26,640 nucleotides of DNA, from IMG/VR virus record IMGVR_UViG_3300025828_000156, positions 1 through 26,640 of that record; one strand, given 5' to 3'. The notes below the pieces were generated by a model. It saw nothing but the letters and a program-made list of their open reading frames with translations, did no database searches and was not told the origin of the DNA. A program made the translations under genes and the position numbers. This document shows positions 8,108 through 14,518 of this stretch, piece by piece (position 1 is the first letter of the stretch; each line of letters begins with the position of its first letter). This stretch comes from a virus.

Positions 8108-8126
8108 TAACCAAGGGAGATGACAA

Positions 8127-8441
8127 ATGGCACGTTTTGATTTCTATGAAATCCTGATCAACCACCCTTCATGGGAGGAAAACTATCACGACATCACTGA
8201 CCCTGAGATCCGTCGCGAACTCATGTGTGATGTTGAAGAAATCTCATCCGAGATTGCACCAACCGCAATGCAACAAACTGGCAGTGAGATCGAGTGGGTA
8301 GACCTGATCTTTAATGATGAGGTTGACCCGGCTGTCGTCGTTCAGAAAACCCGCGAGCTTCTGTGGAACTATTCGGAGTCAATGATTGTTGACTTGATCG
8401 AGAGCGAAGCCGCCAAACACGCGGAGGCTTACGATGATTGA
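8127..8441 (+). CDS. Hypothetical acidic protein, first gene of early operon
   Basis: 104 residues with a strong ribosome site (AAGGGAG, 7 bases before ATG). Sequence starts ARFDFYEILINHPSWEENYH. It is acidic throughout, helical by composition, and has a single Cys and no membrane segment. I do not recognise a domain. As the first gene behind the early promoter and operator it would be among the first proteins made, so host-takeover or antirestriction roles are possible. It overlaps the next gene by 8 bases. Confidence 0.6.
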   Translation: MARFDFYEILINHPSWEENYHDITDPEIRRELMCDVEEISSEIAPTAMQQTGSEIEWVDLIFNDEVDPAVVVQKTRELLWNYSESMIVDLIESEAAKHAEAYDD

Positions 8442-9835: not shown

Positions 9836-10038
9836 GCCATTCAGCGCAGATACTTGACCATTTAACCAAAGGCCCGATCACAGCCATGGACGCTCTGAAT
9901 AACTACGGGTGCTTCAGGCTGGCCGCACGTATCAATGACCTTCGCATGAGCGGTCACAAGATACACACGGAGATAGCCAAGAAAGATGGCAAGCGGTACG
10001 CCAGATATCACTTAGTCAAAAAAAGGGAGGAAACATGA
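9832..10038 (+). CDS. Winged-helix/HTH protein
   Basis: 68 residues, coupled to the preceding HTH gene by ATGA. SAQILDHLTKGPITAMDALN followed by YGCFRLAARINDLRMSGHKI is a typical small winged-helix domain, with a beta-wing at HTEIAKKDGKRYARYHL. I recall this layout from HTH_39-type phage proteins. It is basic and should bind DNA. It may be a second early regulator acting with its neighbour or help replication. The assignment to a fold is better supported than the function. Confidence 0.6.
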   Translation: MSHSAQILDHLTKGPITAMDALNNYGCFRLAARINDLRMSGHKIHTEIAKKDGKRYARYHLVKKREET

Positions 10039-10313
10039 AACAGTTTGTAATTCTATTGGCGATTGTACTAGCGGCCCCGGCATTTGCAGGGACCAAGGCT
10101 TACACCAAGAACGGGGAAGGCGGCCAGATCGTCCTAACCGATGAGCCTTGTGAAGCTGATCCAAAGATGCTTCGGGCTTACTTCTTCACTGAAGCTCACT
10201 ACACCGAGGAAGGTTGTTGGAAGGACGATGACACAACCATCTTTGCTGTATGGGATCAGCAGGGAAAGTACCGCTATCGCAAGTCGATCTTCAAGGTCGT
10301 CAATCAGTGGTAA
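10035..10313 (+). CDS. Small exported protein of the early operon
   Basis: 92 residues with an excellent ribosome site (GGGAGG). Residues 1-18 (MKQFVILLAIVLAAPAFA) are a textbook Sec signal peptide with an AFA cleavage site; the mature protein is about 74 residues with two cysteines (in DEPCEAD and EEGCWKD) that could form one disulfide. No lipobox. An early, exported phage protein suggests a periplasmic action such as superinfection exclusion or envelope modification, but no family is recognised. Confidence 0.65.
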   Translation: MKQFVILLAIVLAAPAFAGTKAYTKNGEGGQIVLTDEPCEADPKMLRAYFFTEAHYTEEGCWKDDDTTIFAVWDQQGKYRYRKSIFKVVNQW

Positions 10314-10337
10314 AAAAAAGGCCCTCGCGAGAGGGCC
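10312..10337 (-). terminator. Rho-independent terminator, leftward
   Basis: Read leftward: GGCCCTC, loop TCGC, GAGGGCC, then eight T. The plus strand has the matching A8 before the stem and no T-run after it, so the terminator works only on leftward transcripts, although all genes here run rightward. Confidence 0.75.
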
Positions 10338-10396
10338 ATGTCACTTGTCCAAGGGAGGGACTACGTGATATCTTCAAGGGGTCAAATCGTGAAGAT
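10312..10396 (-). ncRNA. Candidate leftward antisense small RNA (about 85 nt)
   Basis: A leftward TATAAT (plus-strand ATTATA at 10403-10408) lies about 90 bases before the strong leftward terminator ending near 10312. The predicted transcript would start near 10396. It would be antisense to the start of the gene at 10365 and contains GTCCCTCCCTTGGAC, complementary to the ribosome site there. No good -35 hexamer is seen (AAACAC at 17-base spacing), so expression is uncertain. The terminator is the firm part of the evidence. Confidence 0.35.
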
Positions 10397-10604
10397 GAAT
10401 GGATTATACACTACAAAACCATTCCGTGTTTCCTTTCATCCTCATTTTTGTCAGAGATTACTGGGCGTTAGGCCGACGAACCTAAGAACGTCGGAGACGG
10501 AGTTGACCCTCTCTATGATGCGCCCCGCTGGTCGAGAGCAGATCAAGCGGATAGATGTCAAGATTCGATACAGTAATCATAGCTCGTCATTATTAACTAA
10601 CTGA
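10365..10604 (+). CDS. Hypothetical protein (79 aa), GTG start
   Basis: 79 residues from GTG 10365, chosen because GGGAGGGA lies 4 bases upstream; an ATG at 10338 sits inside the terminator hairpin and is unlikely, while GTG 10389 with AAGGGG upstream is a rival. The sequence includes PFRVSFHPHFCQRLLGVRPT and ELTLSMMRPAGREQIKRIDV. It is basic with one cysteine and no recognised domain. The stop is followed directly by a 9-bp hairpin. It could be an unrecognised regulator; it is less certain than its neighbours because the leftward signals lie here. Confidence 0.45.
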   Translation: MISSRGQIVKMNGLYTTKPFRVSFHPHFCQRLLGVRPTNLRTSETELTLSMMRPAGREQIKRIDVKIRYSNHSSSLLTN

Positions 10605-10606
10605 TT

Positions 10607-10627
10607 TGCTGGAGCTTTGCTCCGGCA
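10607..10627. other. Stem-loop after the gene at 10365-10604
   Basis: TGCTGGAGC, loop TTT, GCTCCGGCA: nine pairs with one G-U wobble, three bases after the stop codon. No T-run follows, so it is more likely an RNA stability or processing element than an intrinsic terminator. Confidence 0.45.
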
Positions 10628-10647
10628 TTAAAAGGGAAGTGTGGATT

Positions 10648-11031
10648 ATGGAAAAGTTTGAAGAAAAGCTATGCGATTTGCAGATGAGTTTTCGGTGCAA
10701 GGTTTATTCTTCTGGCAAAAGAAAAATGAGCTTTAGTGCCAGCACTGGATATTTAGAAGCTGGAGACGATGCGGCGTTAAGTTTTAGGTATCAGGCAATG
10801 AAACTTATGTTTAAAAGTCTTGGCTATGATTTAGGTTCTGATTTTCTGTTTGAAGAAATTGAAAAGCGATACAGCCTAGATGTTTATGAGATTTTAGAAT
10901 GTAGATCTAACCCCGTAGTCGAAGAGGCTGAGTCTAAAGAAGAGATTGAACAAGAGGCCGAGGCTGAAGAAGAGGCTGAAGAAGATGAGGCTGAAGAGGA
11001 TGAGGTAGAATACTATTATGATCATTCTTAA
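10648..11031 (+). CDS. Protein with extreme acidic C-terminal tail
   Basis: 127 residues from ATG 10648, preceded by AAGGGAAG at 8 bases; an upstream start at 10606 would add residues from the hairpin region and is disfavoured. Residues 1-88 look folded (EKLCDLQMSFRCKVYSSGKR ... SLDVYEILECRS). Residues about 90-120 are almost all Glu/Asp/Ala, from imperfect GAGGCTGAAGAAGA-type repeats. Codon use is more A+T-rich than in neighbours. Such tails mimic DNA or recruit basic proteins, so an anti-restriction, anti-nucleoid or repressor-inhibitor role is conceivable. No family recognised. Confidence 0.6.
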   Translation: MEKFEEKLCDLQMSFRCKVYSSGKRKMSFSASTGYLEAGDDAALSFRYQAMKLMFKSLGYDLGSDFLFEEIEKRYSLDVYEILECRSNPVVEEAESKEEIEQEAEAEEEAEEDEAEEDEVEYYYDHS

Positions 11032-14030: not shown

Positions 14031-14053
14031 AAGAAAAGGCCGCTTATGCGACC
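14031..14053 (-). terminator. Leftward intrinsic terminator containing a stop codon
   Basis: Read leftward, a GC-rich stem (GGTCGC, loop ATAA, GC-rich return arm with one imperfect pair) is followed by a T-rich run (TTTTCTTT). The TAA of the 57-residue gene forms part of the loop. It would end or attenuate transcription before the frameshifted and sigma-4-like genes. Confidence 0.6.
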
Positions 14054-14217
14054 TTGACTTGATCTAAGGCTTTCTTTGCGGCGTTCATTGCCTCGTCAAA
14101 AGTCACTTCCTCTGCGATTGTTTTTAGCACCTTCCACTTATCGCCAGCCAAAACTGTATAAGTGCCAGTGCCGCCTGCTGTTGTTGAAACTTCAAAAATT
14201 TGCATTTCAAAACCCAT
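14044..14217 (-). CDS. Small hypothetical protein (57 aa), leftward
   Basis: 57 residues, leftward, with GGGAG 7 bases before ATG. It begins GFEMQIFEVSTTAGGTGTYT (two beta strands) and ends in an amphipathic helix DEAMNAAKKALDQVKVA; the aromatic/Val pattern suggests a small beta-beta-alpha fold. The TAA stop lies in the loop of a terminator-like hairpin. No family recognised. It belongs to the leftward operon from the divergent promoter. Confidence 0.6.
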   Translation of the reverse strand: MGFEMQIFEVSTTAGGTGTYTVLAGDKWKVLKTIAEEVTFDEAMNAAKKALDQVKVA

Positions 14218-14237
14218 TTCCTTTCTCCCTTGGTAAA

Positions 14238-14253
14238 GGCCGCTTATGCGGCC
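14238..14253 (-). terminator. Perfect hairpin GGCCGC-ATAA-GCGGCC over a stop codon
   Basis: Perfect 6-bp stem with loop ATAA; the loop includes the TAA stop of the 75-residue leftward gene. Only a short TTTA follows, so it may be a weak attenuator or RNA processing site. The loop and arm design is nearly the same as that at 14031-14053. Confidence 0.5.
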
Positions 14254-14471
14254 AACTGTGATGCGATTGCTTCGAAGATGTTGCGTCGATACTGAACTTC
14301 GTTTTCTTGACGAGAGATTGATACAAAGGCACCAACAGCCGCGTCACCAAACGCATATGCTTCGCCGCGAGCTTCGCTCTTTATCTCGTGTAACTGCTCT
14401 TGCGCATCTTCAAGTGCAATTTCAGCTTTAGTCAAAGTTGCCCAAAAATCGTTGTTGATTGCGTCTTTCAT
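14244..14471 (-). CDS. Hypothetical helical protein (75 aa), first leftward gene
   Basis: 75 residues with an AAGGGAAG ribosome site. It starts KDAINNDFWATLTKAEIALE and is mostly helical with charged heptads (DAQEQLHEIKSEARGEAYAF), a short Gly/Ala-rich turn, and a final helix rich in Ala. No known domain. As the first gene behind the leftward promoter it might be a regulator or a small binding protein. The gene is well supported by its ribosome site and its promoter. Confidence 0.6.
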   Translation of the reverse strand: MKDAINNDFWATLTKAEIALEDAQEQLHEIKSEARGEAYAFGDAAVGAFVSISRQENEVQYRRNIFEAIASQLAA

Positions 14472-14518
14472 GTCTTTTCTTCCCTTGGTTAGTGGCTGTG
14501 TCCCCAGCCGATGAACAC

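Follow-up and report, generated by a model that had tools for sequence, protein, structure and literature searches.

We find that a podovirus-like phage probably encodes a small leftward RNA whose unpaired C-rich motif pairs with the Shine-Dalgarno (SD) sequences of a set of small phage genes, most likely blocking their translation. The architecture of this RNA is conserved among relatives, and its motif co-varies with the SDs of other genes in the same genomes. A single RNA seems to govern a varying set of small genes by way of one word common to their ribosome sites, and this word has been replaced several times, on both sides together. The phage is represented by a 26,640-base IMG/VR virus record, analysed over its whole length (the window); the large terminase nearest to its own is that of Burkholderia phage BcepC6B (51% identity).

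DNA comparison among relatives delimited an intergenic block, about 335 nt long (10311-10646), that is conserved; it starts with the upstream gene's stop codon and runs as far as AAAAGGGAAG, the SD that serves gene 10648. The first relatives, 72 related contigs, were collected by tblastn with a reading frame overlapping the block. A neighbour-protein search also found the left ~100 nt of the block without its right-hand core, fused to a different conserved core. Because it is joined to two unrelated right-hand cores, we regard this left part as a module of its own. We fetched 187 loci that contain it, some being overlapping parts of a single contig, and these gave 92 distinct sequences. Regulators of HTH type lie upstream of the module, and a gene with a replisome-organizer-like domain lies near the structured leader to its right. 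The block had no match in cultured phages or plasmids, one of its 20-mers was absent from GTDB genomes, and neither 20-mer nor neighbour-protein searches of genome contigs gave host or prophage copies. No Rfam release 15 covariance model matched at its curated score, the best sub-threshold match of the element being RyhB (E=0.17), and a search limited to open-access papers found none describing the element. The features of the block are as follows.

10312-10396, minus strand: predicted small RNA of 85 nt with three hairpins, recognised by conserved -10/start spacing, hairpins and terminator
10403-10408, minus strand: -10 box TATAAT of the predicted leftward promoter, without a good -35, conserved across modules
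10312-10337, minus strand: predicted intrinsic terminator, stem 10337-10320 followed by T8, with stem variants among representatives
10349-10357, minus strand: C-rich motif CUCCCUUGG, which matches the targets by complementarity and co-varies with their SDs
10449-10644, plus strand: core of a rightward structured leader RNA, identified by covariation and distinct from the small RNA

From left to right the module consists of a T-tract, a GC-rich hairpin, a second hairpin, a first hairpin and a minus-strand -10. The original prediction had placed a leftward TATAAT ahead of a leftward terminator, with an RNA of about 85 nt between them and a poor -35; each of these elements was recovered. The box is present at 10408-10403 on the minus strand and is conserved in relatives (TATAAT in 36, TATACT in 32 and TACAAT in 7 of the 91 modules scored). 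In modules whose first hairpin could be identified, the base opening it was mostly A or G and lay 6 nt (66 modules) or 7 nt (13 modules) from the -10; this is where the RNA would be expected to start. The predicted ends, 10396 (5') and 10312 within the T-tract (3'), give a computed length of 85 nt. The -35 is weak across all relatives and near chance (mean best match 3.30/6, vs 2.85 for shuffled sequence). A G or TG stands immediately 5' of the -10, and lineage-specific repeats lie upstream; these sequence features may point to an activator. By eye, the hairpin at 10398-10446, like the same region in L029, L030 and L064, contains direct repeats with a period of about 10 bp, which vary by lineage (GTTACAACAA, GGACACCCTT) and overlap the -35 region of the leftward promoter.

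The terminator stem (GGCCCTC/GAGGGCC) has seven pairs, six of them GC, a loop of four and then T8. Scanning the window gave 11 terminator-like sites against 11.3 expected, and because such a scan alone is at chance level the reality of the terminator rests on comparative evidence. The GC-rich stem and the T-run on its leftward side are kept in all 45 representatives, as are the three hairpins. Over the 45 sequences the first stem takes 21 forms and the terminator stem 18, with compensatory substitutions. These stems were checked sequence by sequence because cross-class sequences align poorly, which also accounts for the low yield of RNAalifold on the mixed small-RNA alignment (only 4 pairs). 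In an independent set of 38 previously unused contigs, fetched with a 17-mer of the second core, the module was present in 38/38 and the -10 stood at 6-7 nt in 32. With -10, start position, three hairpins and terminator conserved together, the prediction of a leftward small RNA at this locus is well supported.

In the window CUCCCUUGG lies in the loop of the middle hairpin, its two G within the stem, and is the perfect complement of CCAAGGGAG. Across relatives the motif occupies the middle loop, the linker before the terminator or the terminator loop, and is unpaired in each. In L241, L249 and L257, which are of the TGGAGGG kind, the terminator loop holds the motif, either as its only copy or as a second one; these three were read by eye, their automatic type labels all being wrong, and they indicate that the motif can shift position while staying unpaired.

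CCAAGGGAG occurs exactly at 8111 (plus), 10349 (plus) and 14225 (minus), and with one mismatch at 14480 (minus), which bears out the claim of a site shared by the genes at 8127, 14217 (minus) and 14471 (minus); CCAAGGGA(G) stands upstream of all three. The predicted targets in the window are these.

8111-8119, plus strand: predicted target SD CCAAGGGAG of gene 8127-8441, duplex -20.5 kcal/mol
14225-14233, minus strand: predicted target SD CCAAGGGAG of gene 14217-14044, duplex -19.3 kcal/mol
14480-14488, minus strand: predicted target SD CCAAGGGAA of gene 14471-14244, duplex -15.9 kcal/mol
10023-10030, plus strand: weaker candidate target AAGGGAGG before gene 10035-10313, duplex -15.4 kcal/mol

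Over 41 genes the median energy of the duplex with the RNA loop was -10.0 kcal/mol; gene 11806 also reached -20.4 kcal/mol, through GGGGGAG. The three main predicted targets have no assigned function. The small genes at 14044-14471 (minus) and 8127 (plus) share a common leader, a 5' hairpin (CGGCTGGGGACACAGCC, TTCCATGTGGAA or GGCCGCATAAGCGGCC) followed by ACTAACCAAGGGAGA, and some such leaders lie behind a sigma70-like promoter. Leaders of this kind, with ACTAACCAAGGGAGA behind a hairpin, precede many different small genes in relatives.

The original prediction had also suggested action in trans on 8127, 14217 (minus) and 14471 (minus), and co-variation of motif and SDs across lineages supports this. 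We typed modules by their plus-strand motif and, for every other gene of the same loci, counted SDs containing GGGA, excluding the module and 330 nt beyond it. SDs matched the motif in own-type versus other loci as follows: CCAAGGG (CCAAGGGA) 52/261 vs 5/273; ACAAGGG 3/6 vs 8/528; GGAAGGG (GAAGGGA) 13/58 vs 2/476; CAAAGGG 6/49 vs 25/485, marginal at P=0.054 and mostly from one upstream gene; CTAAGGG 5/29 vs 17/505 (P 0.005); ACGGG (ACGGGA) 31/111 vs 8/423; and TGGAGGG 3/20 vs 3/514. The own-type excess has P<0.001 in five of the seven motif types, but these single-motif values overstate the case because the SD contexts are not independent, the genomes being related and the cassettes mobile. 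Permutation of the type labels is fairer, though with only seven groups: the true assignment was the best of 5040, and when each protein family was given a single vote, 2 assignments of 5040 reached the observed value.

Single gene families follow the same pattern. Homologs of gene 8127 carry CCAAGGG, ACGGG, CTAAGGG or ACAAGGG at the SD in genomes of the matching type, keeping the own-type motif in four of five lineages. The SD of the 14471 family switches with the genome between CCAAGGG, CAAAGGG and GGAAGGG, its homologs in other lineages having CCGAAGGG or CAAAGGGAG. One further family has three own types and five have two. Over all lineages 43 gene families bear the motif of their own genome, most of those tested being without known function; the winged-helix regulator adjoining the module is a predicted target in the ACGGG group and apparently also in L249 and L257. 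Independent contigs of the GGAAGGG type (class II) had GAAGGGA in 17/108 SD contexts and CCAAGGGA in 4/108, the complementarity being short in this class (6-7 nt). Foreign-type SDs occur in some genomes (L177, L162, L116). The motif of the predicted RNA is accessible, and its complementarity to several mRNAs from elsewhere in the genome is conserved. The word it would recognise marks otherwise uncharacterised small phage genes as one predicted regulon, and its replacement on both sides provides a natural series of compensatory changes, making RNA-RNA pairing directly testable.

To the right of the start site, structured RNA is read rightward. The leader core (10449-10644) has at its end AAAAGGGAAG, the SD of the gene whose ATG is at 10648; about 70 viral contigs carry the core, and its end is the SD of the following gene, whatever that gene is. 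Its covariation comprises 13 pairs changed on both sides, with 0/500 shuffles as good; it scored 0.250, compared with 0.142 for shuffles and no more than 0.078 for slid versions, and no Rfam family matched it. For strand we used strand-neutral folds and counted internal mismatches that would be G.U on the plus or on the minus strand. Plus:minus counts were 7:0 in the hairpin at 10398-10446 and 22:1 in the core with its 3' hairpin, and we conclude that these helices are rightward because G.U is tolerated almost only in the plus sense. The same asymmetry right of 10398 rules out a single leftward RNA of 335 nt. In the module the ratio was 5:4, on small numbers, favouring no strand, which is what transcription of both an antisense RNA and its complement would produce; a strand-specific energy comparison folded the module's second hairpin somewhat better on plus. 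No promoter for the rightward leader was found inside the element.

The predicted RNA is antisense to the first ~85 nt of this long leader (10311-10647) preceding gene 10648, and not to the ribosome site of a gene at 10365. A protein-coding gene at 10365 (ORF 10338-10604), whose ribosome site the original prediction had blocked in cis, is not supported: its frame is broken by indels in relatives while the DNA itself is conserved, and many tblastn spans of the frame are not multiples of 3. That prediction is supported for the leftward RNA and its action in trans and fails for the cis block.

We suggest the following mechanism, in which production of the RNA, repression instead of activation, and titration are steps we infer. 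Transcription would run leftward from the -10 at 10408-10403 to the terminator at 10312. The unpaired C-rich motif, here in the middle hairpin loop, would pair with the SD regions of small phage genes, cover them and lower translation, in the window that of 8127, 14217 (minus), 14471 (minus) and perhaps 10035. Since the RNA is fully antisense to the start of the leader, leader transcription would probably titrate it, the rightward read-through leader serving as a perfect sponge and releasing the targets.

This arrangement is reminiscent of several known antisense systems. Lambda OOP is a short leftward RNA located in the rightward early operon, with regulator genes on one side and a replication gene on the other; it is antisense to cII mRNA and promotes degradation of that mRNA through RNase III. 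The predicted RNA resembles it in length, direction, placement in a rightward early operon and regulator/replication gene neighbourhood, but has an SD motif common to several genes, which to our knowledge has not been described for OOP. ColE1 RNA I is a three-hairpin antisense RNA against the 5' part of the long structured RNA II, and CopA is antisense to the repA leader. The likeness to RNA I extends to the three hairpins and the long structured partner, but unlike RNA II the leader here ends in an SD and start codon, and we know of no motif co-variation with other genes in ColE1. RNA-based origins are known in phages (PMC7157519).

In phages P1 and P7 the antisense RNA c4, which takes part in their heteroimmunity, uses complementary stretches, believed to be in loops, to block ribosome-binding sites (PMC12197685). 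Our RNA would work likewise, with unpaired complementary sequence (loop or linker) against SDs, a likeness in working and not homology. Unlike c4, which has one described target, the ant mRNA, it matches a site common to many unrelated small genes and is predicted to form an independent unit that has a promoter and terminator of its own; its predicted targets are scattered small genes and not an ant antirepressor mRNA. In phage P22 the short antisense RNA sar hinders initiation of ant translation (PMC12197685); it too has one described target, in contrast to the several predicted in trans here. The Hfq-dependent trans-acting phage sRNAs PreS of lambda and VpdS of VP882 have been described on host RNAs (PMC12197685), whereas the co-varying predicted targets here are phage genes. 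The phage small RNAs in that review have one or a few RNAs as targets (PMC12197685).

The co-variation test cannot separate complementarity from plus-strand identity, the two being the same at the DNA level, so a translational repressor protein of the phage that binds the plus-strand motif in RNA, with the leader as a decoy or autoregulatory copy, remains a rival. We consider it unlikely. Motif and SDs would co-vary because both follow the specificity of the protein, and the permutation results fit equally; the motif also lies in a plus-strand hairpin loop, and the second hairpin folds somewhat better on plus. This explanation gives no account, however, of why a minus-strand -10 is conserved at the distance expected from a start site, or of the leftward terminator. 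We found no RNA-binding protein as a candidate; the regulators upstream are of HTH type.

Still less probable, in our judgement, is an RNA antisense to the leader alone, acting purely in cis on folding, attenuation or an RNA-primed origin, with SD similarity reflecting shared leader cassettes. Such a role would suit an antisense RNA of three hairpins that lies at the start of a long structured leader, close to a gene with a replisome-organizer-like domain, and the helices show no strand bias within the overlap and plus sense outside it. But a cis role gives no reason for SDs of many unrelated genes elsewhere to follow the motif type, and no leader promoter was found inside the element. Ordinary mosaicism, in which lineages share a favoured SD, the module drifts along and there is no leftward RNA, we regard as very improbable. 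The genomes are indeed related and cassettes with the same hairpin recur; yet the cassette hairpin GGCCGCATAAGCGGCC (or near copies of it) is followed by CCAAGGGAG, TACGGGAG, CTAAGGGAG or CTGGAGGGAG to match the module of its genome, 1 or 2 of 5040 permutations of the type labels reach the observed value, and some co-varying bases lie outside the usual SD.

If the small RNA acts through its SD word as we suggest, the motif types (at least seven) could be specificity groups, each phage lineage having its own RNA/SD code, although we doubt that this is so. Were it true, the RNA would control a phage's own small genes and those of superinfecting relatives of the same type, and of no other types, like the heteroimmunity of P1 and P7 but over a whole gene set.

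Beside the leader described here, a second conserved core of about 280 nt (GCCTAGTCGAGCCTAGT...), unrelated to the first, takes the same place in 61 contig stretches (examples are L184:760-1010, L161, L174, L189 and L215-L274); it matched neither Rfam nor cultured phages. The gene behind the leader in the window (10648-11031, plus) encodes a protein with a very acidic tail, with runs of E, A and D, that matched no family. In relatives, unrelated genes stand behind the same SD and leader, as if cassettes had been inserted directly after it.
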